NCBI RefSeq assembly: GCF_029761915.1
Contig: NZ_CP121695.1
Span: 6,539,501-6,603,500, forward strand
Source of the DNA: Bradyrhizobium sp. CB1650
GTDB lineage: Bacteria; Pseudomonadota; Alphaproteobacteria; Rhizobiales; Xanthobacteraceae
Length of the DNA stretch: 64,000 nt
Direction of reading: 5' to 3'
This document shows, piece by piece, positions 4,051 through 61,902 of the stretch. The position numbers were made by a program, and so were the translations under genes. A model generated the notes under the pieces. It made no database searches, was not told the origin of the DNA, and was given only the letters and a program-made list of their open reading frames with translations. Each line of letters starts with the position of its first letter. Position 1 is the first letter of the stretch.

Positions 4051-4175
4051 GACGTATCGATAGGCGTAAGGTCCGCGTGTGGAGCTCTTAATCCATATCA
4101 AATTATTGGATTTTAAACACACGAACTGATCAAATCGCAGGCTTGCTAATTGGCGACGCGGCCTCAAGGCACGTT
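4051..4175 (-). promoter_or_regulatory. LysR-type operator/promoter cassette, copy 1
   Basis: The palindrome is at 4090-4112 and has lost one base relative to the other copies. The left flank (TATCGATAGGCGTAAGG) and right flank (CGAACTGATCAAATCGCAG) match the other cassettes. It reads toward the ALS remnant on the minus strand, with 60 bp to its ATG. It is the most degenerate palindrome of the set, consistent with its target being dead. The LysR assignment is inference from copy 11. Confidence 0.7.
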
Positions 4176-4380
4176 CGAGCTTTTGATCAGATCGACGTTG
4201 AAGAACCGGCTACGCTGCGGGCGGTGACCGCCGGGAGTGCAATATGCGCGAGGTCGAGCACGTCACGGCATCGAACACGAAATCGTTTGCCTACATTTCG
4301 TCGAGGTCGGCCGTGACGATGCTGGCGGCCCAATATGCGAACGCTTTGAGCCCAATTGGGGTCAATTTACATCACTGCGT
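4176..4380. repeat. Long cassette flank repeated at 27455-27690
   Basis: The sequence from GATCAGATCGACGTTGAAGA to the stop codon of the NTF2-like gene recurs with scattered changes at 27455-27690. Part of it recurs again at 53600-53680. No continuous reading frame is conserved between copies. In the second copy the match ends exactly at the end of the NTF2-like gene's stop region, where a LysR fragment is joined instead. It is therefore a duplicated intergenic segment rather than a gene. Confidence 0.7.
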
Positions 4381-4854
4381 CTATTGGTCGACCGACTCCG
4401 GCACGCTCGGTTCGACAAGGCGCATGTGCCATCCATCGGCGTCGCGTCGATAAACCACGACGATGCTGCCGTGCTCCTCGCGAAGCTTGCCATTCGCTCC
4501 CGGCACAGTGACTCTGAATTGGGTAAAGCCATAGCCGCCGTTGCCCTGGACATGCGTTTCGACGACTTTGATGGCATGGCCCCGGGCACCGGAGGCGAAG
4601 CGGTTTGTATAATAGTTCGTGAGGGCCTGCCGGCCACGCACGATCGAGCCGGACGGTGCGACCAGTATGCCATCGGCGGCGTAAAGCGCGGCCAGGCCGC
4701 CGGGGTTCCTGGCGGCGTAATTGGCGTCATATTGCTGTGCCAGCGCGGTCGCGGCCTGCATCAATTCCGCTTCCGTGACATCCGTCGCCGAGGCTGGGGG
4801 GACACTAGCGCCGGCCAATAGGGCTAACAGGCCAAGGGTAAGCAATCTGTTCAT
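4381..4854 (-). CDS. Exported SnoaL/NTF2-like protein (DUF4440 type)
   Basis: 157 residues with a cleavable signal peptide (MNRLLTLGLLALLAGASVPPASA) and one alpha+beta-barrel domain of the SnoaL/SgcJ type. Family hallmarks are the helix ALAQQYDANYAARNPGGLAALYAADG, the strand APSGSIVRGRQAL and the closing VVVYRRDADGWHMRLVEPS. Function within this superfamily is not predictable; many members are small-molecule isomerases or ligand-binding proteins. It is the last gene behind the RND pump and adaptor on the same strand, 135 bp after the adaptor, and may be co-transcribed with them. Confidence 0.8.
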   Translation of the reverse strand: MNRLLTLGLLALLAGASVPPASATDVTEAELMQAATALAQQYDANYAARNPGGLAALYAADGILVAPSGSIVRGRQALTNYYTNRFASGARGHAIKVVETHVQGNGGYGFTQFRVTVPGANGKLREEHGSIVVVYRRDADGWHMRLVEPSVPESVDQ

Positions 4855-4989
4855 TCGAGTCTCCTCGAGCTAATAGGATAGATGGAGGGCAGAACGAGAT
4901 TGCGCAATCACGTTTGCGCAAGATACCTCGCCGGCGATTCAAATCGCGATTTAGATAGTTCGCTTCGAATAGAATCGCGGCGCGAGCGC

Positions 4990-6225
4990 TTAGGAATTCT
5001 CACGGACCACCTGCGGCTGAACCGCCGTTCTCGGTGGCGGCACGCCCTTGGCGCTTGCCACCACCCGTGTCTCCTCCGATAGGCCCGCGGTCACCTCGAT
5101 GCGACCGTTATCGATGAGACCAGTCTTAACGGCAAGGCGTGAGATCCGGTTGTCAGTGATGGTGTACACGAAGTTGCCGTCGTCATCCGAACCTACAGCC
5201 GCCGTGGGTACGGAAAGCGCATCGGGGCGCCGGTTCATTTCCAGGGAGACCTCTGCATACGTGCCCGGATAAAGTTGTTCATTGGGATTGGACAGATCGA
5301 TCTCGGTACGCATGTTGCGGGTCTCGGGATCGAGACGCAGTGAGAAGCGGGTTACCTTTCCGATGAACCGCTTACCGTCGAAGCCGGCCGGCTTGACGAT
5401 GGCCGGATCGCCGATGTGCACGTGAGGTACGTCGTTCTCCGGAACGTCGCAAAACACCCGAATCGTGTCGATCCGCTGCACCGTGAAAAGTGACCCTGCG
5501 GACGGCGTCGGCCGCGTGGCCGTGGGGGCCTGGACCAAATCGCCCCGGTTCACCAGGCGCCGCGCCACCACGCCGTCGAATGGCGCCACGATCCGCGTAT
5601 AGCCGAGCAGCGTCTTGATCTTCTCCACGGTCGCGGCGGCGACGTCGACCTGGTTGGCGGCGAGGCCGCGGTTCGCTTCCGCAACGCCGAGATCCGCCTT
5701 GGCGATCTCCGCGTTGGCGTGCACCTGATCGAGCGTCCGGTCGCTGATGAACTGCCGTCCCTCGCCCAGTTGCTCCCGATCTTTCGCCAAGGCGTTCTGA
5801 AGCGCCAGGTTCGCCTTGTTGTGGTCTATTTGGCGGCTGGCGCTCTCCAGCGAACTTTTCTTGGATTCGAGCTGGGCCTCGGCTTCGGCAAGCTCCTGCT
5901 TCATTTCGGGGACGTCGATCACCGCGAGCACTTGACCCGCCTTCACGTGATCGCCGATGTCGACGCGAACATCGGACAGGTATCCGGAGACGTTGGCGAA
6001 GACATCCGTTTCTTCAAAGGCTTCGAGGGTGGCGTTGGTCTGGAGACGTTGGGCCACGGTGACGCGGCGCGGACGCACCACCTCGACCCGCGGAGGACTA
6101 TCCGCCTTCGTTGAATTCACTGGCGATGGCGATGCCGCCAGGTGCCGCTCGGCCGCGATGCCAACCGCGCCGATGCCAAGCGCGACTACCAAGATCTTTA
6201 TGCCCGTTCGACTCGTGAAATTCAT
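4990..6225 (-). CDS. RND efflux periplasmic adaptor (HlyD/MFP family)
   Basis: 411 residues with an N-terminal membrane anchor (IKILVVALGIGAVGIAAERH), then the barrel-sandwich (lipoyl-like) halves around GYLSDVRVDIGDHVKAGQVLAVI and YTRIVAPFDGVVARRLVNRGDLV. A coiled-coil alpha-hairpin (residues ~110-200) and the beta-barrel/membrane-proximal domain complete it. It bridges an inner-membrane RND pump and an outer-membrane channel. It lies 36 bp downstream of the RND gene ending at 6262 and is surely its partner. No TolC-type gene is present, so the outer channel must come from elsewhere. Confidence 0.92.
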   Translation of the reverse strand: MNFTSRTGIKILVVALGIGAVGIAAERHLAASPSPVNSTKADSPPRVEVVRPRRVTVAQRLQTNATLEAFEETDVFANVSGYLSDVRVDIGDHVKAGQVLAVIDVPEMKQELAEAEAQLESKKSSLESASRQIDHNKANLALQNALAKDREQLGEGRQFISDRTLDQVHANAEIAKADLGVAEANRGLAANQVDVAAATVEKIKTLLGYTRIVAPFDGVVARRLVNRGDLVQAPTATRPTPSAGSLFTVQRIDTIRVFCDVPENDVPHVHIGDPAIVKPAGFDGKRFIGKVTRFSLRLDPETRNMRTEIDLSNPNEQLYPGTYAEVSLEMNRRPDALSVPTAAVGSDDDGNFVYTITDNRISRLAVKTGLIDNGRIEVTAGLSEETRVVASAKGVPPPRTAVQPQVVRENS

Positions 6226-6261
6226 TGTGTTCCGCCTTCAAAAACCGTTCTGGCCGTTCAG

Positions 6262-9200
6262 TTATTCCGCGGCACGAGCATGGTGTTCAGCGAGTCCGTC
6301 GCCACGATCCGACCCTGTCGCGAGCCGCGGCTCCGCCTCGAAGCAGCGGCTGTGCGGGTCGTCGGGATCGAGCGATGCGGAAATCCGGGCATGCCGCGAC
6401 TGCAGGGTGGCCAAGATCGCCGGCAGGATGACGAGGGTGGCGCACGTTGCGCCGAGCAGACCGCCGATCACCGCCCGCCCAAGCGGCGCGCTTTGCTCGC
6501 CGCCCTCGCCCAGGCCCAGCGCCATCGGCACCATCCCGGCCAGCATCGCGAAACTGGTCATCAGGATCGGACGCAGACGGCTCCGTGCGCCTTCGATCGC
6601 CGCCTCCCCTGGTTCGCGGCCATCGACCCGGCTGCGCTCAGCGAAAGTCACAAGCAGGATGGCGTTTGCCACGGCCACACCGATCGCCATGATCGCACCC
6701 ATGAAGGATTGAATGTTGAGTGTGGTCCGAGTGAACCAAAGCATCAGTACGACACCGGCGATGACGGCAGGAATTGTCAGCCCGACCGCCAGCGAAAGCC
6801 GGAACGACTGGAAATTGGCGGTCAGCAGCAGAAGAATGACACCCACCACCATCAGGAGTCCCAGACCCAGACCTCTGAACATCTCCGCCATCGGCTGGAC
6901 TTGCCCGCGCACCGTCACGTTCACGCGATCGGGCGGCTTTCCCGTATCGCTGATCGCCTGTCGCACGCGGGCTGCCGCGCGTCCCAGATCCTCGCCGTAG
7001 ATGTTCGCGCTGAGCGTCAGCATGCGCTGCATGTTGTAGCGGTCATATTCGCCGAGCGCCGTGCCGTCGGTAACGCCGGCCACATTGCGGAGGTCTATTT
7101 GTTGGCCCGGCCGGCGAGCGATAGGGAGGCTCTTCACCTCCTCGAGGGAATTCATCTGGTGCTCGGGGATCTCGACCTGCACCTGATAACCAATGCCGCT
7201 CTTCGGATCGGGCCAATAATTCGCGGAGGTGTAGCGACTGGATGACGTGCCCGCGACGACCGATTTCGCAACGTCATCCGCCGTCACTCCCAGAACGCCC
7301 GCTCGCTCGCGGTCCACGGCGACCTTTACGGTCGGGTAATCGAGTTCCTGCTCGAATCCCAGGTCTCGCAGTGTCGGCACCTGTGTCAATTTCGCTCGCA
7401 GTTTGTCGGCGTATTGGCGGCTATCGGCGAGGTTCGGCCCGCTCACTGCTACTTCGATCGGTGTCGGCGCGCCAAAGCTCATCACCCGGCTGACGATGTC
7501 GCTCGGCTCGAATGAGAAGCGTACACCCGGCAGTTCTTGGGGCAACTTTCGACGCAGCTGCTCCTTCAAATCCTCGATGCCGATCCCGGCGCCGCGCTTG
7601 AGCTGCACCTGCAGCACCGCTTCCTCGGGGCCGGAACTCCAGAGGTAGATCGTATTGATGGGATAATTGGGCGGCTGCGTGCCGACAAAACCGAGGCTGA
7701 TTGCCACATTATTCGGGCCGACCTCGCGCTTGATCGCGTCGAGCGTCTGCAGCGCGATCTGCTCGGTGCGCTCGATGCGCGTTCCCGCCGGAGCCCGCAG
7801 ATGTAATTGGAGTTGGCCGGTATCCACAATTGGAAAAATCTCGATGCCGAGCGAGCTGCCCACTAGGCCAATGATGGCGCCGCTGACGACAAGGTAGGAA
7901 AGCACAACGATGCGCCGACGTTTCATGACGGCACGCGCGAACCGATCGTACCTTGCCCGCAGCCGATCGAAAGGCGTCTCTTGCGCCTTGTGGTGCGTGC
8001 TCGGATTGCGCAGCATCCAGACCGACATTATCGGGACAAAGGTACTGGAAAGCAGATACGACCCTACCATCGAGAAGCCGACCGCCAAGGCCAGCGGTAC
8101 GAACAGGTTGTGCGCAGCGCCGGTCATGACGAAGGCGGGAATGAACACCGCCAGAATGCACAGCATAGCGACGAACCGGGGCAGCGTCGTCTCGGCCGTG
8201 GCCTCGCTCGCGGCGCGGGCAAGGCTGCGGCCATCGGCAAGGTGGGTGTGCATGTTCTCGATGGTGACCGTCGCCTCGTCGACCAGGATGCCGACTGCCA
8301 AGGCCAGCCCGCCCAAGGTCATGATGTTGATCGTCTGACCCGATACCCAGAGCGCCATCACCGACGCCAGAATCGCGAGCGGAATGTTCAAGACCACGAC
8401 GAGCGAACTGCGCCAATCTCGCAGAAACAGCAGCACCATGAGCCCTGTGAGCACTGCGCCGAGAGCGCCTTCGACGAACAGGCCCTGGATGGCGCGCGTC
8501 ACGTAGGGGGACTGGTCGAACTGGTAACTGACCTCAACATCGCCAGGCAGCACGGATTGGAAGCGTGGCAGGTTGGCCTTGACGGCCTGCACGACCGCGA
8601 GCGTCGAGGCATCCGCGCGTTTGGTTACGGGGATGTAGACCGTGCGGCGTCCATCCACCAGCGCGTAGCCGGTCTGGATGTCGGCGCCGTCTTCGACCGA
8701 TCCGACGTCGCGTATGAAAATCGTCTGTGTTCCCTGCGAGCGGATGGGAATGTTGTTCAGGCCCTTGAAATCCCCGACAACGGAGTTGACCGGCACCATC
8801 GGCAAGAGGTCGCCGATGCGGACGTTACCCGATGGGCTGACCGTGTTGCCGGCAGCCAACGCCCGCACCACCTCGTCCGGCGACATGTTGTAGGAGCGCA
8901 GCTTGCCGGCATCTATGCGGACGAGGATGGTGCGCTGGCTCGAGCCAAAGGGCGGCGGTGCCGATACGCCTGGCAAGGTCGCGAACAGTGGGCGCACCTT
9001 GAAGAGCGCCGCGTCCTGAAGCTCGGCGACTGTTTTCGTCTTACTGGAGAAGACGAGATCGCCGACCGGCACGCCGCCTGCATCGAACCTGACCACGAAC
9101 GGCGGAACGGTCCCGGTCGGCATGAAGGCGCGCGCGCGGTCCACGTAGCTGACGGTCTCGGCCAGCGCCTGGGCCATGTCGCTACCGGGATGGAATTGGA

Positions 9201-9477
9201 GCTTGATCAGCGCTACGCCCTGGATCGATTTGCTTTCGACATGCTCGATGCCGGTGATGTAGAGGAAATGGTATTCATAGTAGTTGGTGATGAACCCCTC
9301 CATCTGCGCCGGATCAAGGCCGCCATAAGGCTGCGCGACGTAGATGGTTGGCACACCGAGGTCGGGAAAGATGTCGCGGGCCATGCGGTCGAGCGCCAGA
9401 ACGCCCATCAGTGCAACGGCTACGACCATCGTCAAAAGCGAGATCGGGCGCCGCAATGCAAACGACACCAGATTCAC
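6262..9477 (-). CDS. RND efflux pump, inner-membrane permease
   Basis: 1071 residues, a typical size for a proton-driven RND transporter with 12 membrane segments and two large periplasmic loops. It starts [19 protein letters not shown], with the family RP pair after the first cytoplasmic helix. The TM4 proton-relay motif is [13 protein letters not shown], so the usual Asp-Asp pair is Asp-Glu here. The C-terminal half repeats the fold ([18 protein letters not shown]). The last ~30 residues are Arg/Asp/Glu-rich and variable. Order on the minus strand is pump, adaptor, NTF2-like protein. Substrate is unknown; the sequence resembles drug or solvent pumps more than metal pumps. Confidence 0.92.
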
Positions 9478-16710: not shown

Positions 16711-16852
16711 TTGATGTATCGATAGGCGTAAGGTCAGCGTGTGTAGCTCTTAAATCCAATATCGAATTGTTGGATTTTAATCACACGAACTGATCAAATC
16801 GCAGGCTTGGCTAATTAGCGATGCGGCCTCGCGGCACGGCTGTCCGCTTCGA
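16711..16852 (-). promoter_or_regulatory. LysR-type operator/promoter cassette, copy 2
   Basis: This is a full-length cassette. The palindrome at 16753-16776 has intact arms AATCCAAT and GTTGGATT. The left flank begins TTTGATGTATCGATAGG. The right flank runs through TGATCAAATCGCAGGCTTGG to CGGCTGTCCGCTTCGA, where similarity to other copies ends. It reads toward the ALS remnant, 61 bp from its ATG. Confidence 0.75.
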
Positions 16853-27315: not shown

Positions 27316-27454
27316 CTGGTATCGATAGGCGTAAGGTCTGCGTGTGGAGCTCTTAAATCCAATATCGAATCGTTGGATTTTAATCGCGCGAACTGATCAA
27401 ATCGCAGGCTCGCTAATTGCGATGCCGCCTCGCGGCACAGCTGTCCGCTTCGAG
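27316..27454 (-). promoter_or_regulatory. LysR-type operator/promoter cassette, copy 3
   Basis: The palindrome at 27356-27379 has intact outer arms (AATCCAAT, CGTTGGATT). The left flank TATCGATAGGCGTAAGG and right flank through GCACAGCTGTCCGCTTCGAG are typical. It reads toward the DUF5666 gene. The first ATG downstream on that strand, at 27294, is 62 bp away and opens only a 14-codon leader frame. Confidence 0.75.
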
Positions 27455-27690
27455 CTTGTTGATCAGATCGACGTTGAAGAACCGGCCGCGGTGACGCCGG
27501 GCGGGCGGTGACCGCCTGGGAGCGCCATATGTGCGAGGTCGAGCACGTCGCGGCATCGAAGACGAAACCGTTGCCTACGCTTCGTCGAGGTCGGCCGTGA
27601 CGATGCTGATGGTCCAATATGCGAACGCTTTGATCCCAATTGGGGTCAATTTACATCGCTGCCCTCTATTGGTTGACCGACTCCGGTCTG
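27455..27690. repeat. Long cassette flank (repeat of 4176-4380)
   Basis: Second copy of the segment that ends at the NTF2-like gene's stop region near 4 kb. Here the copy ends with the same bases (CTATTGGTTGACCGACTCCGG) and then joins a LysR fragment at 27691. It preserves a trace of the 3' end of an NTF2-like gene without its body, which fixes the break point of the duplication. Confidence 0.7.
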
Positions 27691-27860
27691 TGCAGCTTCG
27701 CCTGACGACGATGAAAACGCCGCGGCAGCTCGACGCGCTCGCCGAAGGTCGGCTGGATGCGGCCCTGATACGGCCTCGGCCCAGTTACGCGGCAGGGGTG
27801 GCGGCAGCGTCCGCGCCTTCATCGATGCAGGCATCACGTTCGGGAGGCGTCGAGAGCTTA
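27691..27860 (+). pseudogene. LysR regulator remnant with internal deletion
   Basis: The codons for QLRLTTMKTPRQLDALAEGRLDAALIRPRPSYAAGVA match the middle of the LysR gene at 61903-62846. They jump straight to its last ~25 codons (SVRAFIDAGI). The 5' half and most of the effector domain are missing. Unlike the copy at 62 kb, the frame through GRLDAALIRPR is correct here, which shows the C that was lost in the other copy. It is convergent with the large regulator, as in the 62-kb arrangement. Confidence 0.8.
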
Positions 27861-43148: not shown

Positions 43149-43337
43149 TGAAATTCTCCTTTGCGTAAAGTTGCTTTTGAATTGCCGCAGGAATGCCGGC
43201 AACAATGATGCGTGTTCGCAACGTGGTCATCGATCGCTACTCCGTGATAGGTTTTCGCCCGAGCTTTTCTCGCATCTATTTCCGACGGAAGAGGTCTACT
43301 GTTACGCGGGGTCACGGCGTTGTGCTTCAGCGCGTTT

Positions 43338-46166
43338 TCAGTTCGGCACCGAGATATGCTCGGCGGCCAACAACGTATCGACGTCCGCAGAACGCATGAC
43401 TGTTCCATCGTTCACAAAGGCCTCGTGGTTACTCTCGATCGTTTCGATGTCGTAGAGGTAGTTCACCATGATGCCGAACGATTCCTGGATGCCGCGCGGC
43501 GCAGTGTTTCCGAGCCAGTTGATTCGCTCCAGACGTGCGCCATTTCCCAAATGAAAACGCGCGACGGGATCCGCTCGATCCTCAGCCGATACGCGGCGCG
43601 TCAAATAGGTTGCACAAGCGCGCATGATCCTCCGCTCCAGGGAATGATCGCTTGTTGCGGTATCGAGCCACCCGACCCCGGTCTCTGTCCGGGCCAGCAA
43701 CGCGATCGCGGGATCATCCGTTGCAGCGGCGCGCTTCGTCAGCCATCGTCGGAATCCCGGCACCGGTGACAACGTCGAGAATCGGGTCAGATGCGGAAGT
43801 TCGTTCTTCAATTCTTCAACCACCTGCTTGATCAGAAAATTTCCGAAAGAAATTCCGCGCAGGCCATCCTGACAGTTCGAGATCGAATAGAAGATTGCGG
43901 TGTCCGCACGTGAGGCCCGGTTGCGAGCGGCATCGTCATCGCTGTCCTGAACCAGCAGCGGCTGAACGGCTCCGGCTAATCCTTCAACGAGCGCCACTTC
44001 TACGAAGATCACCGGGTCGCCTGGGAGGGCCGGATGAAAAAATGCGAAGCAGCGACGGTCCGGTGCGAGTCGCCGCCTCAGATCGTCCCACCCGTGGATC
44101 TCATGCACCGCTTCATAAGCGATTAGTTTCTCGAGAACGGCAGCCGGAGACTGCCAGTCGATACGCCGCAGTTCGAGAAAACCCCGGTTGAACCATGACG
44201 CGAACAGGTGCATCAGATCGCTGTCGAGCAGCCTCAGCACCGGCTCGTCGCGCAAACGACTAGCGACTTCCTTGCGCATGGCAACCAATGCGTTCGTGCC
44301 GCCAGGCGCCGTGTTCATGCGTCGCAACAGCTCTTGCCGGGGCGGATCAGTCGCTTGCGCAAGCAACGCGGCAGCTTCGGCCGAGGGAGCGGATAGATAA
44401 GTCTCCGCCGCGGAGCGAACCACGGTTGCGTCCGGCGCAAAATCGGTCGCCAGAAATTGCTGAAAATTGCGGCGATCGTCCACAGCAAGTCTGCGGAGAA
44501 CGCCGTGCAGTTCGCGGGCGATAGCCGCGCCGGATGCTTCACCGCGTTGCGAGAGCAGTGACTTCGCAAGCGTCTTGGCGCGGCTGAGTTGATCGACCGC
44601 AGCGGCTGGAATTTCGACAACATTCGTCGTCATTTCAATCTCCTGTTGGCTCAACTGACCTTGCCAGGCTTGCGACCGCGACCGCATGTGCACGGAATTT
44701 GCTGGTGAGGCGTACAGGTCGCCAGAGCAGATCACGAGATCGTCGATCGTCTGCGCCGCGAGCAGTTCGCGCGTGGCATCCTTGACGTCGATCCCGAGAT
44801 CGGATGGCCGCATCACGATGCCGCGTGCGCGCGGATCGCTGGTCATGTCCGGCGATTGAGCTTTGCCAAAATCGGTGTCTCCGGCGATGGCGCACAGCGC
44901 ACCCTCCCGTTCCGCAGCGGAACGGCAGAGCAGGAGATTTGCGACGCCTTGTTCGGTGATGACGTGAGTGACGTCGTCGCCGCAGCTCATCACCGGCGGC
45001 AATGCGAATCCTGCTGACGCCGCGAGATCGACCGCGTCGAGCCGCTCCACGAAGCTCGGCGTCCCGTCCGGCTGGCGGGTGTCGACCGTCTGCACGACGA
45101 GCTCGCGGCCCCTAGTGCGGTCGCCGGCCTGCTGGCCCGCGCGCAGCCAGGCCGGACTGGCATGCCGGCGGCCTCGCGTATCCGCGCCCATGTTGGGCGC
45201 GCCGCCGAAACCGGCAATCCGCCCCTTGGTTGCCGTCGAACTGTTGCCTTGCGCGTCGATCTGAAGGGTCGCGCCGACGAAGAGATCGCAAGCATATTGG
45301 CCGGCCACTTGCGCCCACGCGCGGTTCGATCGCAGATGACCGTCTGGCCCGATCGGAAATATGTCGGCGCGTTCCGAAATACAGCGCTCCATCCCGAGCT
45401 CGTATCCGAAACAATAGACGCCTTCGACAAAGCCGGCCTCAATCGCGGGAATCAGCGTCGGGTGCGGATCGAGAACGAAGTGGGTGGCCTTCAATCCGCG
45501 CGCGGCGCCGAAGGTCGGCAGAATCAATTCGATCCCAGCGGTCGCGTAGCAGATGCCGCGATTCAGCCGGCGAATTTCATAGGGCTCATAGACTGCCGCG
45601 ATGGCCATCATTGCCATCAATATTTTGTCTTCCCGAATCTCGGCAGGATCGCGGGTGAATAGCGGTTCGATCGCACAATGCGCCGAGCTCTGCACGACGA
45701 CATCCACCCAATCCCCGGGAATGTCGACCCACGGCAGATGGTCAACGATCTCATTGATCTGCGCCACGACGACACCGCCGGTGAAAGCGGCGGCCTCTAC
45801 AATAGTCGGCGTGTCTTCGGTGTTCGGGCCGGTGTAAAGGTTGCCGTGCCGGTCGGCTTTGTCTGCGACGACGAGCGCGACGCGCGGCGTCAGATCCGCC
45901 AGCATTCGGGCATAAAGTTCAAGACAGGTGTGGGTCGCACCAATCTTCAGGGAGCCGGACGCTACCAGCTCCGCCAGCCTCCGGCTTTGCGGCCTGGCAA
46001 AGACAGAATCGAGTCGGTTCGCAATGCCCCGCGCAAAGGCGGCGAGATGGTCGGGGAGCGCGAGAACCGACTGCACCATATGCAGATGATGCAAGCGCGC
46101 AGGGTCGGCTTTCGCGAGCGCCGCCGCCAGGAAATCGGCTTGCTTTTGGTTGTTACCCTTCATCAC
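43338..46166 (-). CDS. Malonate CoA-transferase (MdcA) fused in frame to malonyl-CoA decarboxylase
   Basis: 942 codons. Residues 1-~500 are MdcA, which makes a malonyl thioester by transferase action: KGNNQKQADFLAAALAKADP, NLYTGPNTEDTPTIVEAAAF, GNSSTATKGRIAGFGGAPNMG, YGDD-like SCGDDVTHVITEQGVANLLLC. From Met ~510 (ATG at about 44637, preceded by AGGAG) to the end is malonyl-CoA decarboxylase: FYSISNCQDGLRGISFGNFLIKQVVEELK and HLGNGARLERINWLGNT. In the next frame the MdcA end reads SKFRAHAVAVASLARS and stops just before that ATG, so an indel near 44700 probably fused two adjacent genes. The MdcA N-terminus lacks ~40 residues. Confidence 0.85.
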   Translation of the reverse strand: MMKGNNQKQADFLAAALAKADPARLHHLHMVQSVLALPDHLAAFARGIANRLDSVFARPQSRRLAELVASGSLKIGATHTCLELYARMLADLTPRVALVVADKADRHGNLYTGPNTEDTPTIVEAAAFTGGVVVAQINEIVDHLPWVDIPGDWVDVVVQSSAHCAIEPLFTRDPAEIREDKILMAMMAIAAVYEPYEIRRLNRGICYATAGIELILPTFGAARGLKATHFVLDPHPTLIPAIEAGFVEGVYCFGYELGMERCISERADIFPIGPDGHLRSNRAWAQVAGQYACDLFVGATLQIDAQGNSSTATKGRIAGFGGAPNMGADTRGRRHASPAWLRAGQQAGDRTRGRELVVQTVDTRQPDGTPSFVERLDAVDLAASAGFALPPVMSCGDDVTHVITEQGVANLLLCRSAAEREGALCAIAGDTDFGKAQSPDMTSDPRARGIVMRPSDLGIDVKDATRELLAAQTIDDLVICSGDLYASPANSVHMRSRSQAWQGQLSQQEIEMTTNVVEIPAAAVDQLSRAKTLAKSLLSQRGEASGAAIARELHGVLRRLAVDDRRNFQQFLATDFAPDATVVRSAAETYLSAPSAEAAALLAQATDPPRQELLRRMNTAPGGTNALVAMRKEVASRLRDEPVLRLLDSDLMHLFASWFNRGFLELRRIDWQSPAAVLEKLIAYEAVHEIHGWDDLRRRLAPDRRCFAFFHPALPGDPVIFVEVALVEGLAGAVQPLLVQDSDDDAARNRASRADTAIFYSISNCQDGLRGISFGNFLIKQVVEELKNELPHLTRFSTLSPVPGFRRWLTKRAAATDDPAIALLARTETGVGWLDTATSDHSLERRIMRACATYLTRRVSAEDRADPVARFHLGNGARLERINWLGNTAPRGIQESFGIMVNYLYDIETIESNHEAFVNDGTVMRSADVDTLLAAEHISVPN

Positions 46167-46350: not shown

Positions 46351-46480
46351 GATGTATCGATCGGCGTAAGGTCAGCGTGTGGAGCTCTTAAATCCAATAT
46401 CGAATTATTGGATTTTAATCACACTGACTGATCAAATCGCAGGCTTGGCTAATTGGCGATGCGGCCTCGCGGCACGGCTG
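46351..46480 (-). promoter_or_regulatory. LysR-type operator/promoter cassette, copy 4
   Basis: The palindrome at 46391-46414 (AATCCAAT, ATTGGATT) is a perfect 8+8 inverted repeat. It lies 89 bp from the ATG at 46302 and upstream of the malonate genes. The right flank enters the 3' end of a response-regulator fragment, whose frame terminates within the cassette at AAGCCTGCGATTTGA. Confidence 0.78.
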
Positions 46481-47860: not shown

Positions 47861-47973
47861 TTGATGTATCGATAGGCGTAAGGGTAGAATGTGTGGGGCT
47901 CTCAAATCCAATATCGAATAATTGGATTTTAATCACACGAAGGGATCAAATCGCAGGCTTGCTAATTAGCGAT
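47861..47973 (-). promoter_or_regulatory. LysR-type operator/promoter cassette, copy 5
   Basis: The palindrome at 47905-47928 has arms AATCCAAT and ATTGGATT, 61 bp from the ATG at 47844. The left flank TTTGATGTATCGATAGGCGTAAGG matches copy 2 most closely. The right flank ends early, at GCTAATTAGCGATAAGG, where an acyl-CoA dehydrogenase fragment starts. Confidence 0.78.
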
Positions 47974-51160: not shown

Positions 51161-52009
51161 CTAGTGGGATTTCTCTGCGTAAAGAAGCTCGCCTGCGGAG
51201 CTGTTGCTCAGATCCGCCTTGAGGAAGGCCTCGGTTTCTGGAAGTGCGAGATGGAAGTCGTTCAACGCGTCCATCCTGATGCGCAGGCGCTTCGCCGTGC
51301 ATTCGAGTACGTGGCCGCCGTGGCGCCGCTCTTCCGTCAAGAAGTGGAAATGATATCCGGGCACGCTGAACGCGCTCGAAAACCCGGGCGACCAGATGCC
51401 GATGAGCGTGCCGGAGACGTCCATCAGGTCGAACTCGCGCTGATCGCGGGCCGCATCGACGAGGCGGCCACCGGGGCTCTGAGGGTTCACCGCCCTGGTG
51501 CGGACGCGATCAAACCGTCCGTCCAGGCGGATCGCGAAGAATATGTTATTGGAGGTGCGCAGCCGGTCGCAGCCCGCCTCCAGCTCGTGCAGATTGGAGA
51601 TGGCACCGATCTGCTCATCCGTCCCGGGCGCGAAGCGGGTAATGACGGCAAACGGCGTCAGCGCTGACGCCGCGGCTTGCGAGACTTCTCCGCTGCCCCG
51701 CACCCGGTAGACGGCTCCGTCGAGGACCACCATCTCGCCGTCTAGGCCTTCGAAAGTGCCGAGACCGAAATCGCCGTGGGCGAGGAGCTGGCGCACAGTG
51801 ATTGCTCCCGAATAGACGCCGGTGACGAGGGCGCCCGAGGTCGAGATCTGGAACAGGGTATGCAGTGACACACCGAGACGCAGCGCGAGCGCCGTGCACA
51901 CCACCGCGGACGGCGTGGTTGATGCCCGTCGCGCCTCGTCCTCAAGCGACTGGCGCAGTGAGATTGGAATATCGATCGTGAGCTCTGCAGATCTTGCCTT
52001 CATCATCAT
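51161..52009 (-). CDS. Acetolactate decarboxylase with N-terminal ribbon-helix-helix-like segment
   Basis: 282 residues from the ATG triplet at 52009 (MMMKARS). Residues ~7-45, SAELTIDIPISLRQSLEDEA then RRASTTPSAVVCTALALRLG, have the strand-helix-helix pattern of Arc/CopG DNA-binding domains. Residues ~50-280 are ALDC: LFQISTSGALVTGVYSGAITVRQLLAHGDFGLGTFEGLDGEMVVLDG, the zinc His cluster YHFHFLTEERRHGGHVLE, and the closing LALPETEAFLKADL. It converts 2-acetolactate to acetoin. No signal peptide, so probably cytoplasmic. Cassette copy 6 lies 87 bp upstream. Confidence 0.87.
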   Translation of the reverse strand: MMMKARSAELTIDIPISLRQSLEDEARRASTTPSAVVCTALALRLGVSLHTLFQISTSGALVTGVYSGAITVRQLLAHGDFGLGTFEGLDGEMVVLDGAVYRVRGSGEVSQAAASALTPFAVITRFAPGTDEQIGAISNLHELEAGCDRLRTSNNIFFAIRLDGRFDRVRTRAVNPQSPGGRLVDAARDQREFDLMDVSGTLIGIWSPGFSSAFSVPGYHFHFLTEERRHGGHVLECTAKRLRIRMDALNDFHLALPETEAFLKADLSNSSAGELLYAEKSH

Positions 52010-52050
52010 TGCCCTTGCCTTCGTTTGACGTCTCGTCACCCGACAAACAA

Positions 52051-52192
52051 GCGTCGATGTACCGATAGACGTATGGTCAGCGTGTGGAGCTCTTAAATCC
52101 AATATCGAATGATTGGATTTTAATCGCACGAACTGATCAAATCGCAGGCTTGGCTAACTGGCGATGCGGCCCTGCGGCACGGTTATCCGCTT
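52051..52192 (-). promoter_or_regulatory. LysR-type operator/promoter cassette, copy 6
   Basis: The palindrome at 52096-52119 (AATCCAAT, ATTGGATT), 87 bp from the ALDC ATG. The left flank carries CGTCGATGTACCGATAGACGTATGG, a variant shared only with copy 7. The right flank extends to GGTTATCCGCTTCCGTG. Confidence 0.8.
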
Positions 52193-53440: not shown

Positions 53441-53680
53441 CACCCGACAAATAAGCGTCAATGTACCGATAGGCGTATGGTCAGCGTGTGGAGCTCTTAA
53501 ATCCAATATCGAATGATTGGATTTTAATCGCACGAACTGATCAAATCGCAGACTTGGCCAATTGCGATGCTGCCTCGAGGCACGGCTGTGCGGTTCGAGC
53601 TTGTTGATCAGATCGATGTTGAACAATCGGCCTCGGCTACGCCGCGGTCGGTGACCGCCTGGAAGCGTCATACGCGGGGC
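53441..53680 (-). promoter_or_regulatory. LysR-type operator/promoter cassette, copy 7 with long flank
   Basis: The palindrome at 53500-53523, 87 bp from the ATG at 53413, reading toward the ALDC remnant. The left flank is nearly identical to copy 6. The right flank continues into the GATCAGATCGATGTTGAA stretch shared with copies 1 and 3, then diverges near 53680. Confidence 0.78.
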
Positions 53681-54006: not shown

Positions 54007-54921
54007 TCATCTACGTCCGTACAACTCCAGTGCCACCCCTCCAAGTGTCAGCATGAACGCGCAGATTTCCCGGAAACCTAGCGCTTCACCGAGAATCGCA
54101 GCGGCAGACAGCGCGCCGACAATCGGGACCAGTAGAAGCCCGGTCGATGCCGTCGCCGCGGGAATACGCTCAAGGGCAGCGAACCACGAGAGATAGCAGA
54201 GAGCCATGGGACACACCGCCATGTAGGCGAGCGCGCCTGCTCCAGCGAAGCGCAGCGGCCCGATTTCCGACCCGTTGAGGGTCAAGTCAACAACGATCAT
54301 TGCCGCCGAACCGAGGCCGATCTGCCACGCGGTTGATACTATTGGCGGCAGCGGAATAGGCGCTCGGGAGGTGACTGCACCCAGGGCGAACAGGATGGCC
54401 GCGGCAAGGGCGAGCGCCACGCCCGGAAACATTTCGATCCGGCCTCCCAAATTTGCCCCCATAAGGAGGACCAACCCGGCCACGCCGAGGCACAGGGCGA
54501 TCACAGTGCGCAACCTGGGGCGCTCCCCAAGGATCGGCCAGGCGAGCAACGTCGCCCAGATCGGCATGGAGAAAGTCAGCAGCGCAGCTTGTGCCACCGT
54601 AAGCCACAGCAGCGCCAGGGCTGTGAGGCCCATCGGGGCGAACACATTAGTCGCTGCCCCGAGGGCGAGCCGCGTCGTCAGGTTGCGCGAGGGTAAGACG
54701 TTCTGTCCTCGCACCAGCGCGATGATGGCGAGGCCGAGCGCGGCAGCCAGCCCGGCGCAACCGCGGGCGAACAGCGGCGGCCAATCGTTCATGGCGATCT
54801 TCATCATGGGCCAGCCGAGGCCCCAACCAACGGCGGTCGCGACTAAAAGCAGCCGGCCCCAAGCGGGCGACCTGGAGATGACTCCGGGCCGACCATTCGC
54901 AAAAGGGGTATCGGGCGTCAT
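54007..54921 (-). CDS. EamA/DMT family transporter
   Basis: 304 residues with ten membrane helices arranged as two EamA repeats: LLLVATAVGWGLGWPMMKIAMNDWPP opens the first, VVAGLVLLMG-like and FALGAVTSRAPIP mark the second, ending IVGALSAAAILGEALGFREICAFMLTLGGVALELYGRR. Drug/metabolite exporters of this fold are poorly predictable in substrate. It overlaps the upstream GNAT gene by four bases, so the two form a unit and the exported compound may be what the acetyltransferase modifies. Confidence 0.9.
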   Translation of the reverse strand: MTPDTPFANGRPGVISRSPAWGRLLLVATAVGWGLGWPMMKIAMNDWPPLFARGCAGLAAALGLAIIALVRGQNVLPSRNLTTRLALGAATNVFAPMGLTALALLWLTVAQAALLTFSMPIWATLLAWPILGERPRLRTVIALCLGVAGLVLLMGANLGGRIEMFPGVALALAAAILFALGAVTSRAPIPLPPIVSTAWQIGLGSAAMIVVDLTLNGSEIGPLRFAGAGALAYMAVCPMALCYLSWFAALERIPAATASTGLLLVPIVGALSAAAILGEALGFREICAFMLTLGGVALELYGRR

Positions 54922-55481
54922 TTCGGTCTCTGCTGCGGCGGAGCCAGTCGCTTTTCAAGCTGCATTACGCCCGGCGCGCCGAGACTCGCAGAAATCTTGA
55001 AGCCAGCTTTTGCTGCCTCCGCCAGCATTTTCTTATTACTAGCAAATGTCTGAGCCGTTATCTGACGAACGCCGGCCTCTGACGCGAAGCGTTCAAGTCT
55101 GCCCAAGAGCAGTTTTGCGAGGCCGTTACCCTGCCAGGAGTCGGCCACCGATACCGCAAATTCTGCTGACGAGGCGTCGGCCGCCCGCGCATAGCGCGCC
55201 TCTCCAATCACGACTTCGCAGCCATCAACGAAGACTTCCGCAACGAGCGCCACATGATTGGCATAGTCCACCTGCGTGAATTGCCGCAACAGTTCGGAAG
55301 ACAGTTCACTGACAGGATGCATGAACCGACTGCACCGCGCGTCAGCGGAGAGACCATGGAAGAACGCGTTCAGGAGTTCCCGATCCTGCGGCAAGACAGG
55401 CCGGATAACGACACGTTCGCCAGCAGTCAGACATACGACGTCGATCAATTCGGCAGGATAACGCTGGATTTGGTAAGCCAT
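54918..55481 (-). CDS. GNAT family N-acetyltransferase
   Basis: 187 residues. GERVVIRPVLPQDRELLNAFFHGLSADARCSRFM at the start and the acetyl-CoA pyrophosphate loop region AVSVADSWQGNGLAKLLLGRLERFA (Q-x-x-G-x-A type) define a GNAT domain close to protein- or small-molecule acetyltransferases. Starts 3 bp after a 49-codon frame and overlaps the EamA gene. Substrate unknown. Confidence 0.88.
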   Translation of the reverse strand: MAYQIQRYPAELIDVVCLTAGERVVIRPVLPQDRELLNAFFHGLSADARCSRFMHPVSELSSELLRQFTQVDYANHVALVAEVFVDGCEVVIGEARYARAADASSAEFAVSVADSWQGNGLAKLLLGRLERFASEAGVRQITAQTFASNKKMLAEAAKAGFKISASLGAPGVMQLEKRLAPPQQRPK

Positions 55482-55634: not shown

Positions 55635-55655
55635 TACAATCTGCGTAGGTCCAGC

Positions 55656-55745
55656 TTATCGATATGCGTAAGGTCTCAGTGCGGGGCTCTCAAATCCAAT
55701 ATAGAATCATTGGATTTTAATCACACGAACTGATCAATCGCAGAA
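55656..55745 (-). promoter_or_regulatory. LysR-type operator/promoter cassette, copy 8
   Basis: The palindrome at 55693-55716 (AATCCAAT, CATTGGATT), 59 bp from the first ATG (55634) of a 49-codon/GNAT/EamA unit. The left flank is shorter (TTATCGATATGCGTAAGG) and the right flank ends at TGATCAATCGCAGAATTG. Confidence 0.75.
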
Positions 55746-57891: not shown

Positions 57892-58686
57892 TCAGCGTGG
57901 CTGCTCCACCGCCTTGACGGCTTCCGCGCTGGCGCTCGAGCTAGGGGCCTCCGCCGGGAAACGGATGCGCAGGTCGGAAATTTCCTGGACCAAGGCCCGA
58001 CCCGCGCCGGTGGTGAGCGCCAAGACGTGACCGCCCCGCGCCTTGTCGGAGCTCAAAAAATGGAAATGCCAGCCGGCCACGTTGACGGAGCTTGCCGCTA
58101 CCGGAAACCGGAAGCCGATCAGGGTGCCGTTGACTTCGGCGAGTGTATTGACGACCTGCTCTTCCTTGATCACCTCTGTCAGCGGACGATAGGGCTTCAC
58201 TTGTTTCGGCTCGCTGCGCACCTGAATGGATTGGAATCGACCGTCGATGCGAACCGCAAGGACTCGCGAAGCGCTGCAAGGCAGCGCATCAAGTGCAGCT
58301 TGCAGTTGCTGCAGCGATTGTCTGGCGGCAATCGGCATAGATGCTTGCGGGTGAAAATCAACCACGACGGCAAATGGGGTCGGCTCCGACCGCGCCACCA
58401 AATGGGCGCGACCGTCGGTCGTCCCGCGATAGACCCGACCATCGAGCACCATCATCTCGCCGTCCACCCCGTTGAAGGTGCCCAATCCAAAGTCGCCATG
58501 GCGCAGCATCTCATCGACGGTCGTGTCACCGTCATAGGCGCCGGCGAGTAGGCTGGAGACGGTGGCGACCTGGTATGCTTCTCCGGCGCGCGCGGGCGCC
58601 GCACCGGCGGCGAGCACGAGGAGAGTCAGCGTGCGCGAAAGGATTATCGGTAAGCTCAGCTTTATTGACGTGACCATGTCCATCAT
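57892..58686 (-). CDS. Exported acetolactate decarboxylase (second ALDC)
   Basis: 264 residues from ATG 58686, with AGGAG eight bases upstream. A signal peptide SLPIILSRTLTLLVLAAGAAPARA precedes the ALDC domain: QVATVSSLLAGAYDGDTTVDEMLRHGDFGLGTFNGVDGEMMVLDGRVYRG, ending with the zinc His set WHFHFLSSDKARGGHVLA. Unlike ALDC-1 it lacks the RHH-like segment and appears periplasmic. It lies 115 bp downstream of a cupin gene on the same strand, with cassette copy 9 upstream of both. Confidence 0.88.
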   Translation of the reverse strand: MMDMVTSIKLSLPIILSRTLTLLVLAAGAAPARAGEAYQVATVSSLLAGAYDGDTTVDEMLRHGDFGLGTFNGVDGEMMVLDGRVYRGTTDGRAHLVARSEPTPFAVVVDFHPQASMPIAARQSLQQLQAALDALPCSASRVLAVRIDGRFQSIQVRSEPKQVKPYRPLTEVIKEEQVVNTLAEVNGTLIGFRFPVAASSVNVAGWHFHFLSSDKARGGHVLALTTGAGRALVQEISDLRIRFPAEAPSSSASAEAVKAVEQPR

Positions 58687-58801
58687 ACTGTCTGCTCCTA
58701 TCGTCTCGTTTGCGCAAACATTCATCCGATGCTCCTCTCAGTGGCTCCGAACTGCCGAGACGAAACTGGGTCGTGCTAGTCCGCAAGCGTGGGTCATCGG
58801 C

Positions 58802-59275
58802 CTATCCGATATGGACGGGCGGTATATCGGGAGCGAGCCAATCGGGCCGGCTTTCGAGTTCAGGCAGCAAACGAACACTCTCCTGCTCGTTGGGATCGGT
58901 GCGCGCGACGACAGCCACGCAGCTTTCTGTGTTACTCAGATTGTAGGGCAGATGCGGCATACTGGCGGGGATGTAGAGAAAGTCGCCGGCGCGGGCGACG
59001 AGATGATGTTGAAGTTCGTCGCCATACCAACAGCCGGATTCGCCGCTCAGGATATAGATGGCTGATTCGTGGTTTTCATGCTTGTGCGCTTTGGACCGAA
59101 CGCCAGGCGGAATCCTGACAATCTGCAGATGAATTCGCTGTGCGCCGGCGGATTGCGCAGAGATGCCGGGCGCGAGCAGATGTCCCTGCTTGCCGACAAT
59201 TTCCGCCCCTGCGCGAACGAGACGGCAGGTCGGCTTTGCCTTGTCAGTTCTCATGTCGGATGTGCCGTCACTCAT
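58802..59275 (-). CDS. Cupin domain protein
   Basis: 157 residues from ATG 59275 with AGGAG upstream. One cupin barrel: GVRSKAHKHENHESAIYILSGESGCWYGDELQ gives the first motif with three His, and AGDFLYIPASMPHLPYN the second with Pro and His, enough to bind one metal. Function is not predictable: some relatives are isomerases or dioxygenases, others sensors. It is upstream of ALDC-2 and downstream of cassette copy 9 (107 bp), so it probably leads a two-gene operon. Confidence 0.85.
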   Translation of the reverse strand: MSDGTSDMRTDKAKPTCRLVRAGAEIVGKQGHLLAPGISAQSAGAQRIHLQIVRIPPGVRSKAHKHENHESAIYILSGESGCWYGDELQHHLVARAGDFLYIPASMPHLPYNLSNTESCVAVVARTDPNEQESVRLLPELESRPDWLAPDIPPVHIG

Positions 59276-59354
59276 GCCTGGTTCTCCTATCCAAGCTTCG
59301 CGCACCGTTATGGTGAAATCGCTGTGCAACGTTTGGTGCAGTGCTCATTGCCAA

Positions 59355-59485
59355 CTCTATTTGGGGCTTTCATCGACCGAAAATCCAACATCGAATTGTT
59401 GGATTTTAGTCAGGCGTACTGATTAAATCGCTGACGCTTGACGGTCGCCAGGTCTCGATCGCCAGTTTGAGGCGCAGCAGCGAAG
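59355..59485 (-). promoter_or_regulatory. LysR-type operator cassette, copy 9 (lysR-flank class)
   Basis: The palindrome at 59382-59405 (AATCCAAC, GTTGGATT), 107 bp from the cupin ATG. The TATCGATAGG left flank is absent. Thirty-two bases beyond the palindrome the other side reads CTTGACGGTCGCCAG, close to the CTTGACGCTCGCCAG that begins the lysR gene behind copy 11 at nearly the same distance. This suggests a lost divergent lysR. Confidence 0.72.
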
Positions 59486-60315: not shown

Positions 60316-61250
60316 TTATTGCAGCCTCGCGAGCGCCTGCTGGATGCGCTGGCCCTGTTTTTCGGTTATCAGGCTGGACAGCACCTTGCGGAATTGCGGA
60401 TGCTGGACGCCTGAGTGGATGTCGGCAGCGGTAGGCTTTGAGGAATGCGGTCTCGATTGCGCGCGCCTCCGCGTTGTCGACCGGACGGCCGCACGTTGTC
60501 GTGAAGTAGCCTCCATCGGCTTTGGTCTGGGCCTGCAGGATGCCGTCCAGCGCCGCGACCAACTCGATGAGTTCGCCGACCGCGGAATCGCGCTCCTCCG
60601 CCTTCCAGTCCGGGGTCGTGGCGCACCCACTCGAGTTCGTCGAGGATCGCGTGCTGGTTTTCCTCTCTCCAGTGAAAAAGGAACACGTCCTTGAACAACT
60701 CGGAGAGCTCGGGATCGGCGTCGATGCTCTGACGATAATGGAGCTGGGTGAACAGCTCGATATCGAGCGTCAGTGCCAATACCGCCCAGGTACTCTTGCC
60801 AAGGACGGCATGGCCGACGGCGTTGTGATCGACATCGAAGCGATAACCGGCGGGCAGAACATCGCCGGCCATCGCGTCGACAAGAGGGAATAGCGCCTGG
60901 TGTTTCAGCTCCTCGTCGCTGAACCGTACCAACGCCTCAAGCGCAACCTGGTCCCCGAACCAGTGACCCTCACTCAGTTCCAGAACCTTGGCATTGATGA
61001 AACGTTCGACCAGACCAAACATATTGGCGTAGGTGCGGCCCTGTATCTGACTGACGGACCGCTTTTCATCCGCCGACAGGGTCGTGAACGCATCCGCCAT
61101 AGAAAGTCCGTCTGGAAGAAACTTGTGGGCGGTATCGAAGCTGCGCGCGCGGATCACATCCTGTTCGATATCCCAACGAACCCGCTTGGACCTTTGAATG
61201 CAGCGTGCGTACCGTTCGCTGCTGTCGGAGCTAGTGCTGATCACGTTCAT
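60316..61250 (-). pseudogene. Ferritin-like di-iron protein, frameshifted near 3' end
   Basis: From ATG 61250 (AAGGAG upstream). The ligand pattern of a four-helix di-iron carboxylate protein is present: IQGRTYANMFGLVERFINAK (Glu), RFSDEELKHQALFPLVDA (E-x-x-H), LALTLDIELFTQLHYRQS (Glu) and FLFHWREENQHAILDELEW (E-x-x-H). After HDPGLEG the frame shifts (near 60605) to LVAALDGILQAQTKADGGYF and again near 60420 to HPQFRKVLSSLITEKQGQRI. Function unknown. Cassette copy 10 is 215 bp upstream. Confidence 0.72.
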
Positions 61251-61442
61251 ATCGGTCTCCTTCCGCCGAATGGTGCGCTGATGCAGCGGCAAGCTGATCG
61301 GCTGATGCAGCGATCTTTAGGTCGCCCGGCGGGAGGGTCTATGACCGGTGCACCTTCAGACCTGACCCAAAGACTGGGATCCGATAAAGAGAGGTCAGTA
61401 TGGATGCATTATCCGACCTCGAATGCCAGTTGTTGACGGCCT

Positions 61443-61560
61443 CTATCTGGGCCTGTCGACCGCAAATCCAACATCGAATTGTTGGATTTTAATCAAGCAT
61501 CTGATCAAATCGCCTGCGCTTGACGGTCGCCGTCTCGATCGCCAGTTTGAGGCGCTGCAG
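61443..61560 (-). promoter_or_regulatory. LysR-type operator cassette, copy 10 (lysR-flank class)
   Basis: The palindrome at 61465-61488 (AATCCAAC, GTTGGATT), 215 bp from the ferritin-like gene's ATG. As in copy 9 there is no TATCGATAGG flank, and CTTGACGGTCGCC begins 31 bases beyond the palindrome, followed by GTCTCGATCGCCAGTTTGAGG shared with copy 9. Confidence 0.72.
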
Positions 61561-61600
61561 CCGAGCCGGAATTGGGTCCCATTTCACCTGTCTCTGGACG

Positions 61601-61725
61601 GCCGAGGGCTGGCTCCATGTTGCTGCCGTCGACTTCTTTCTCGTCGCGTTATCGGTTGGTCGATGAGCGCCACGATGACACCGCAGTTCGTCGCCGATGC
61701 GCTGATCATGGCGATGCCCGCGAAG
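61601..61725 (+). mobile_element. IS3-family transposase fragment
   Basis: The plus strand encodes, across two frames, EGWLHVAAVDFF and SRRVIGWSMSATMTPQFVADALIMAM. These are the integrase-core block of IS3-type OrfB, downstream of the first catalytic Asp. Only ~120 bp remain; no terminal repeats recognised. It lies between cassette copies 10 and 11. Confidence 0.65.
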
Positions 61726-61844
61726 TGGAGGAGCCTTTGCACGTTGTCGCTTCTCGAAAAAAGAGGCTCACGCACCGCTATTGCCGCTGCCCGGGGTTTT
61801 CCTCGGCTTTGGCAAACGCCATTATCACCGGCAATAACTTGCGG

Positions 61845-61902
61845 TTATCTGCAGATCCAATATGGAATTGTTGGATTGTATTCACGGAGGCTGACTTGGC
61901 AC
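61845..61902 (+). promoter_or_regulatory. LysR-type operator, copy 11, at lysR gene
   Basis: The palindrome at 61854-61877 (GATCCAAT, GTTGGATT) ends 26 bp before the ATG of the lysR gene. GGAGG (61886-61890) is its ribosome site. LysR regulators usually bind such interrupted palindromes just upstream of their own gene. This is the reason for assigning the whole palindrome family to a LysR protein. Confidence 0.72.

Follow-up and report, generated by a model that had tools for sequence, protein, structure and literature searches.

A set of repeated palindromes in Bradyrhizobium sp. CB1650 would best be explained as the operators of a new AlsR-like LysR regulon, built in part by promoter copying, and we put the probability of this reading at roughly 0.8. 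All of the sites described first lie in one stretch of 64,000 nucleotides, hereafter the window. The proposal would assign a likely regulator and a class of signal to an organic-acid cluster of patchy distribution in Bradyrhizobium, a genus of soil bacteria that fix nitrogen, and a literature search (title and abstract start) found no paper treating this regulon.

Composite sites in the window and their target genes

The first-pass annotation listed eleven copies of a 24-bp palindrome, AATCCAAY-N8-RTTGGATT. A pattern search of the window recovered ten of the eleven at 0-1 mismatch (nine with none, site 61854 with one), while chance predicts 0.32 matches at up to 3 mismatches and 100 shuffles gave a maximum of 2. 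The copy at 4090 is also real, but it has lost one base and measures 23 bp; it was recovered in repeat family D3 (11 copies) and by a profile scan. The flanks said to be common to eight copies exist as well, as repeat families D2 and D8. What had been noticed, however, was only half of the unit. A second palindrome, TTTRATC-N9-GAYTAAA, adjoins the first, and the combined element spans 46-48 bp.

An alignment of 29 sites, together with identity profiles, resolves this element into a T-N11-A recognition box and an activation box, the latter on the side of the target gene; the conservation line of the alignment omits six sites (the truncated copy, 4090, 61465 and three lysR-proximal sites). As far as sequence can tell, the arrangement matches that of a LysR-type operator, for which RBS and ABS boxes and the T-N11-A motif are terms in use (passages of PMC11739112). 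Between promoter classes, identity reaches 0.69-0.89 over columns 1-48, against 0.18-0.41 in the flanking 12-bp bins; the comparison took in six class-a sites out of eight, three class-b sites out of four and five class-d sites, and left out 4090, 53500 and 61465. The operator is unusually well defined: its natural copies number 28 across five species, a few being degenerate, its footprint is sharp at about 48 bp, and a candidate regulator gene accompanies it. The identity profiles of the main promoter class show no strong -10 hexamer, and any -10 position would be a prediction. Once transcribed, the 8-bp inverted repeat could base-pair with itself, and the 24-bp palindrome might then be a terminator or leader hairpin rather than a DNA site. 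We regard this as extremely improbable, given that conservation extends to most of the centre and to the second palindrome upstream, that no long U-run follows the palindrome and that Rfam at its gathering threshold reports nothing there.

All eleven composite sites are on the minus strand. Site 1 (4087..4134, one base lost) precedes a 5' fragment of an acetolactate synthase gene, and site 2 (16751..16798) a second such fragment, followed by an abhydrolase. Site 3 (27354..27401) stands before an ORF without Pfam domains (26501-27235, 244 aa) and an alcohol dehydrogenase, and site 5 (47903..47950) before another ORF without Pfam domains (47197-47844, 215 aa). Site 4 (46389..46436) precedes a fusion of malonate decarboxylase alpha (MdcA) and malonyl-CoA decarboxylase (43338..46166, minus strand), with a short leader scar that resembles the leader of acetolactate decarboxylase 1 and is out of frame with the fusion; the fusion behind this leader, at palindrome 46391, is a possible example of promoter capture. 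Site 6 (52094..52141) precedes acetolactate decarboxylase 1 itself (51161..52129, minus strand), whose ORF overruns the site upstream and likely starts near 52009. Site 7 (53498..53545) precedes a 5' remnant of the same gene, comprising only the first part of the ORF (86 ORF residues, about 46 of them downstream of the likely start) and no enzyme domain. Site 8 (55691..55738) precedes a GNAT acetyltransferase and EamA transporter pair (54007..55481, minus strand). Two sites belong to a second promoter class: site 9 (59380..59427), before a cupin protein and acetolactate decarboxylase 2 (57892..59329, minus strand), and site 10 (61463..61510), whose recognition box is shorter by one base, before an ORF without Pfam domains (60369-61292). 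At site 11 (61852..61899), a degenerate recognition half abuts the start of a lysR gene. Other genes of the window (RND pumps, an oxidase, FUSC) have no site immediately upstream.

Thus the copies do point toward genes, as the first-pass annotation held, although several of these "genes" are remnants, and the copy placed directly ahead of lysR does touch its start while the element points the other way. That annotation had named two outcomes as counting against a repeated operator-promoter, namely that the motif would fall mostly inside genes or would not be conserved in relatives, and we saw neither. No site lies within a recognised domain. Two mechanically called ORFs, acetolactate decarboxylase 1 and the acetoacetate decarboxylase of B. 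altum, overrun a site, and their domains start at least 86 residues in. In relatives, sites are retained ahead of the same targets: upstream of the GNAT-EamA pair and the 215-aa ORF in B. sp. ARR65 and B. cenepequi, with acetolactate decarboxylase 1 in B. sp. ARR65 (intact) and B. cenepequi (a remnant), and with acetolactate synthase in B. sp. ARR65, as an intact gene plus a 5' fragment. Targets in relatives also include acetoacetate decarboxylase, a CoA-transferase and FUSC efflux. An operator-promoter repeated over one region is thereby supported, at the level of sequence comparison.

A LysR protein as the candidate regulator

The first-pass annotation proposed the neighbouring LysR as binder. 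The AlsR-like lysR gene (61903..62846, plus strand) is present, but its frame is broken and it is spread over two pieces (61903-62346 and 62331-62846). An uninterrupted homologue lies 2.1 kb beyond the window, at genome positions 6605596-6606477, and since the gene in the window is broken, the acting regulator is probably this outside copy. The 5' piece carries HTH_1 (1.2e-22) and the 3' piece LysR_substrate (5.1e-23), the domains of a LysR-type regulator, and most full-length homologues among the matches listed have both. Against six homologues, the 5' piece is 90-94% identical and the 3' piece 71-83%.

Co-occurrence and a box before distant lysR genes point to this family as the putative binder. 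Of 265 Bradyrhizobium genomes, four encode a LysR with 83% or greater identity to the B. sp. ARR65 homologue, and these are precisely the four with multiple sites; joint transfer of one linked cluster may account for part of this overlap. In B. uaiense (G256), a single site is present and no LysR exceeds 35%. The recognition box (at most 2 mismatches) stands 4-17 nt ahead of the lysR start in all three homologues of 46-49% identity and in B. altum, is the sole such match in each of three distant loci of 14-19 kb, and occurs within 80 nt of the start in 0/12 control LysR genes. A clean box ahead of lysR is absent in 6/10 tested family members (4-6 mismatches): G108 C71 and G020 b have a degenerate box, correctly placed, and G020 a, G108 C73, the uninterrupted own copy and a 40% homologue (G789) have none. 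LysR searches were positive for 1/397 order-wide at 1e-60 (the host itself), for 2/385 class-wide at 1e-52 (one new, at 40% and lacking the box) and for 3/398 phylum-wide at 1e-62 (two new). Another LysR of the window (18226-19461) was rejected as binder, being merely 31-39% identical to the site-linked LysR and having no closer homologue in eight related loci.

A regulator of OmpR type with Trans_reg_C, NTPase and TPR parts (27885-30797 and paralogues) could bind the palindrome instead. It adjoins lysR in B. sp. ARR65, B. cenepequi and the host genome, where it has three copies of 74-100% identity. The 3' part of one copy (62827..63987, minus strand) is convergent with lysR, and its homology runs beyond the window end (genome 6602330-6605215); a second, at 27885-30797, adjoins a lysR remnant (27690..27752, plus strand) similar to lysR 62269-62331 (repeat D20). 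We nevertheless find this regulator an unlikely binder because B. altum has four sites and the LysR, yet its best TPR homologue is at 39%, in the range of ordinary paralogues; moreover, the distant box goes with lysR.

Confinement to one cluster and proposed promoter copying

The remaining genome (9.43 Mb) holds no further palindrome match at 0-1 mismatch, and its five 2-mismatch matches have unrelated centres. A search with the 141-bp cassette found 12 places, all within 64 kb of the 9.43-Mb genome: eleven belong to the window, and the twelfth, a partial copy, lies 3.6 kb beyond the window end. TTTRATC-N9-GAYTAAAA, at up to 1 mismatch across the 9.43 Mb, gave 10 matches, every one on the minus strand: nine are sites of the window and the other is the truncated twelfth copy. 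A reversed control gave 0. Across the genus, the palindrome occurs at up to 1 mismatch in 25/265 genomes, and the full composite in 5 of these 25 (scores of 76-84, with three of these sites taken from the training set). The other 20 were taken as chance, with a 48-bp profile score of at most 16.7. Scoring covered one 3-kb locus per genome, in genomes with a near-exact palindrome only, so diverged sites could be missed. A match in Kangiellaceae, in which the upstream recognition box is absent, was likewise taken as chance.

Eight copies share a promoter cassette that stands ahead of six kinds of gene and has rather sharp ends. A repeated cassette of this kind before unrelated genes could be a MITE- or REP-like element that spreads for itself, its palindromy serving transposition. 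We hold this to be very unlikely because the copies are confined to one cluster, with none elsewhere in the 9.43 Mb and hence none of the genome-wide dispersal of such elements; in addition, it is the 48-bp operator and not the cassette ends that survives between promoter classes, and the same genes keep their sites in other species. Equally improbable is that the sites are by-products of gene-cluster duplication, alike through recent descent and devoid of a regulatory role. The region is rich in duplications, and several copies were indeed duplicated along with gene 5' ends, as the acetolactate synthase and acetolactate decarboxylase 1 fragments attest. Between classes and species, however, similarity is retained over some 48 bp only and drops to near-random levels in both flanks, and recent descent alone is insufficient because the part that is spared is exactly a LysR-type operator.

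Part of the proposed LysR regulon would have grown by local promoter copying, in some cases with a gene 5' end carried along. Promoter propagation, or horizontal regulatory transfer, is the concept of one promoter standing before unrelated genes. Here, too, one promoter stands ahead of unrelated genes, but the copies found stay with the regulator in one cluster and some bear gene-start remnants. Behind two B. altum sites, CoA-transferase 5' ends remain; at one remnant-bearing site the first recognised gene is 0.9 kb distant, which weakens it as an example of capture. Tentatively, and at somewhat less than even odds, we suggest that the regulon grows in place: unrelated genes would capture copies of the operator and core promoter, sometimes with a gene 5' end, that were made inside the cluster, and leader scars would mark these events. 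The outcome would be an acid-responsive gene set, rich in decarboxylases and acid export, for which the order of growth could be traced. This would be a possible route of regulon assembly, in which a promoter is copied to new genes and remnants may reveal the order of events.

A putative mechanism and its known counterparts

In the mechanism we envisage, one dimer of a LysR tetramer would hold the recognition box TTTRATC-N9-GAYTAAA (T-N11-A) and the other dimer the activation box AATCCAAY-N8-RTTGGATT. The far arm of the latter would lie near -35, and an effector-driven shift could therefore recruit RNA polymerase to the gene lying in that direction. In the case of lysR, the recognition box abutting the start codon would be consistent with autorepression. 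The regulon would cover organic-acid turnover (acetolactate synthase, decarboxylases, malonyl-CoA decarboxylase), and given such targets a weak-acid or low-pH signal would be the likeliest effector.

The nearest NCBIfam model to this LysR is that of AlsR, the acetoin operon regulator of Bacillus, Vibrio and Acetobacter. The B. subtilis AlsR box is TAAT-N11-ATTA, and the recognition box here fits it; our literature search did not find an AlsR operator sequence. Acetolactate synthase and decarboxylase, the enzymes paired with AlsR, are likewise encoded in the cluster, and both stand behind the operator: the synthase and decarboxylase of B. sp. ARR65, and acetolactate decarboxylase 1 and the cupin-acetolactate decarboxylase 2 pair in the window. 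The differences are that the best model scores 200.8 bits while its curated cut-off is 430, that lysR is not divergent from alsSD (in B. sp. ARR65 an alpha/beta hydrolase lies opposite lysR, the decarboxylase and synthase about 6 and 9 kb off), and that many unrelated targets each have an operator copy of their own. AlsR is described as acetate- and low-pH-induced in passages of PMC10466699.

WatR of Methylomonas sp. DH-1 is a LysR linked to weak-acid efflux and tolerance that has many operators in one genome, with T-N11-A palindromes; it differs in its motif (ATTGTT-N11-AACAA) and in having its sites at functionally diverse genes (PMC10355033), and the passages of that paper used here make no mention of promoter-cassette copying. 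Both halves of the element described here contain ATC-N9-GAT, and for that reason the nod box was considered. The nod box is the rhizobial operator of the LysR protein NodD, with ATC-N9-GAT boxes. We rejected it, as the box spacing departs from that consensus and the nearest model is AlsR; NodD is absent among the best 25 of 54 NCBIfam models, and nodA lies about 1 Mb from the cluster.

A probable double operator within the shared promoter

We read this stretch as encoding an AlsR-like LysR regulon that, judged from sequence, is real and new, with a well-defined double operator, and that was probably assembled in part through promoter copying. The regulon falls within a known kind, and LysR binding and activation are predicted. 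The first-pass annotation had reported eleven dispersed copies of a 24-bp palindrome, AATCCAAY-N8-RTTGGATT. Pattern search recovers ten of these in the window (nine without mismatch, and 61854 with one), where chance would give 0.32 at up to three mismatches; the eleventh, 4090, is one base short and was recovered through its repeat family and a profile scan. Across the host genome, a single contig of 9,430,299 bp, there is no further match with zero or one mismatch, and the only five two-mismatch matches have unrelated centres. A search with the 141-bp cassette finds 12 places, namely the eleven in the window and a partial one at 6607061-6607124. The truncated twelfth site there, just beyond the window (L033:4047-4094), still has its recognition half but, of the second palindrome, only the first arm.

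The palindrome is real, but it is the second half of a larger element of 46-48 bp, as seen in an alignment of 29 sites (11 in the window, the partial one just beyond it, and 17 from relatives). Read towards the gene, the element is TTTRATC-N9-GAYTAAAATCCAAY-N8-RTTGGATT, and the centres of its halves lie 22.5 bp apart, counted on the alignment. The first half, or recognition box, is also palindromic, with T-N11-A inside (TTTAATCAG-N5-CTGATTAAA in Bradyrhizobium sp. ARR65). At up to one mismatch it has ten matches in the host genome, all on the minus strand: nine are sites in the window and one is the truncated copy beyond it; a reversed control pattern has none, and 61465 and 61854 are not matched at this threshold.

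We distinguished promoter class a (the eight window copies with shared flanks), class b (59382, 61465, and one copy each from ARR65 and B. cenepequi) and class d (the B. altum and B. uaiense sites). In 12-bp bins over 6 of 8 a, 3 of 4 b and 5 of 5 d sites, mean between-class identity is 0.69-0.89 within columns 1-48 versus 0.18-0.41 outside, and conservation between classes is limited to the element. In classes b and d, inspection by eye points to a -10-like stretch at about columns 65-71 (CAGATA, CAAATA, AGAAT), whereas class a shows no strong -10 hexamer. If transcription is assumed to start near column 78, the centres of the first and second boxes would fall at about -66 and -43, which would correspond to the usual layout of LysR operators. 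PMC11739112 describes part of this layout.

Targets and probable promoter copying

In the window, sites 4090 and 16753 each precede a 5' fragment of an acetolactate synthase (ALS) gene, 27356 a 244-aa ORF, 46391 an MdcA/malonyl-CoA decarboxylase fusion, 47905 an unknown 215-aa protein, 52096 the acetolactate decarboxylase (ALD) gene ALD1, 53500 an ALD1 remnant, 55693 GNAT-EamA, 59382 cupin-ALD2, 61465 an unknown gene and 61854 lysR. Targets in ARR65 are a three-domain ALS, ALD, a hydrolase, GNAT-EamA and the 215-aa unknown, and one further site is followed by an ALS fragment and then malate:quinone oxidoreductase. Those in B. altum are a CoA-transferase with acyl-CoA dehydrogenase and CoA-transferase remnants; its lysR is divergent from acetoacetate decarboxylase-FUSC-HlyD, with a site there. 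Small-acid decarboxylases recur among the targets. AlsR is the closest model for the LysR (200.8 bits, under the cut-off of 430), and PMC10466699 gives acetate and low pH as AlsR inducers. We infer that the effector is a weak-acid signal.

Where class a window copies precede unrelated genes, their homology ends between about +79 and +93, counted from where the element begins. It is longer among copies with related genes, extending to +269 for 52096 and 53500 and to about +310 for 16753 and 4090. Between 46391 and the ALD promoter it runs to +155, about seven codons beyond the likely ALD start codon, and the fusion downstream is in a different frame from the ALD leader. In B. altum, site 9294 is next to a CoA-transferase 5' fragment, and site 12617 matches the promoter of the CoA-transferase (16379) as far as +150, beyond the CoA-transferase start; the first Pfam-recognised gene downstream of 12617 is a zinc dehydrogenase 0.9 kb away. 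Partial duplication of a promoter and gene start, followed by capture, is the simplest reading, and 46391 is a clearer example of capture than B. altum 12617. Precedents exist for the spread of promoters.

The fusion ORF (43338-46166, minus) combines MdcA (malonate decarboxylase alpha) with the N and C domains of malonyl-CoA decarboxylase, and a remnant of its C-terminus lies at 26242-26352. ALD1 (likely start about 52009, minus) is extended at its N-terminus by some 50 aa (MMMKARSAELTIDIP...), a putative ribbon-helix-helix domain by appearance. Alpha/beta hydrolase near-duplicates at 15467-16276 and 42342-43205 (minus) share a 300-nt block at 92% identity and both correspond to a single ARR65 gene. 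A chrB-b candidate cis-regulatory RNA (9626-9679, minus; Rfam RF03086, 51.7 bits against a gathering threshold of 36.5) lies upstream of an RND pump gene (6262-9477).

The regulator and its distribution

The window lysR (61903-62846, plus; pieces 61903-62346 and 62331-62846) has a broken reading frame and a degenerate box. Six LysR homologues are 90-94% identical to its 5' piece, which covers the DNA-binding domain and the beginning of the effector domain, and 71-83% identical to its 3' piece. More distant homologues (46-49%) in three genomes, G068, G936 and G717, have differing surroundings (FUSC; acyl-CoA dehydrogenase; CsiD with FMN dehydrogenase, respectively). At each of these loci TTAATC-N9-GATTAA has a single match at up to two mismatches, immediately upstream of lysR and ending 4-17 nt before the start codon. 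The box precedes lysR in 4 of 10 family members, B. altum included, and in none of 12 less related control LysR genes over the 80 nt searched (best 4-6 mismatches). ARR65 copy C71 and B. cenepequi copy b have a degenerate box at the expected place; none was found before lysR in B. cenepequi copy a, ARR65 copy C73, the uninterrupted own copy (genome 6605596-6606477) or the 40% homologue in G789. These six members speak against a simple rule that the box precedes lysR.

An exact scan with the degenerate pattern covered an 84,980-species collection, from which the host itself is possibly absent, and nine of ten matching stretches are in B. altum, B. cenepequi, ARR65 and B. uaiense. The tenth, in Kangiellaceae, lacks the recognition box and was set aside as a chance match. 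Among 265 genus genomes, the composite site is detected in five (10 copies in the host, 4 in B. altum, 4 in B. cenepequi, 7 in ARR65 and 1 in B. uaiense). Four of the 265, namely the host, B. altum, B. cenepequi and ARR65, carry a LysR with at least 83% identity to that of ARR65, which in turn shares 94% and 81-83% identity with the two window pieces; the G068 homologue has 48% identity. The B. uaiense site may be a leftover, since the best LysR there reaches just 35% and the target CoA-transferase matches only part of its family. By our own counting the four-genome coincidence of site and LysR has a chance probability of about 5e-9, although the cluster was possibly transferred as a single block, so that the coincidence does not count as independent evidence.

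The Trans_reg_C-NTPase-TPR regulator encoded beside lysR is an unlikely binder: its gene is not common to the site-bearing genomes, and the best B. altum homologue has 39% identity. LysR remains the predicted binder. The TPR regulator is present as three close paralogues (74-100%), at 27885-30797, at 62827-63987 and beyond, and at L033:4419-7310, every one near a lysR copy or remnant. Bordering the sites in B. altum are an AAA_13 and a SIR2_2 gene (4319-8508 of its locus L030), a pairing reminiscent of defence systems.
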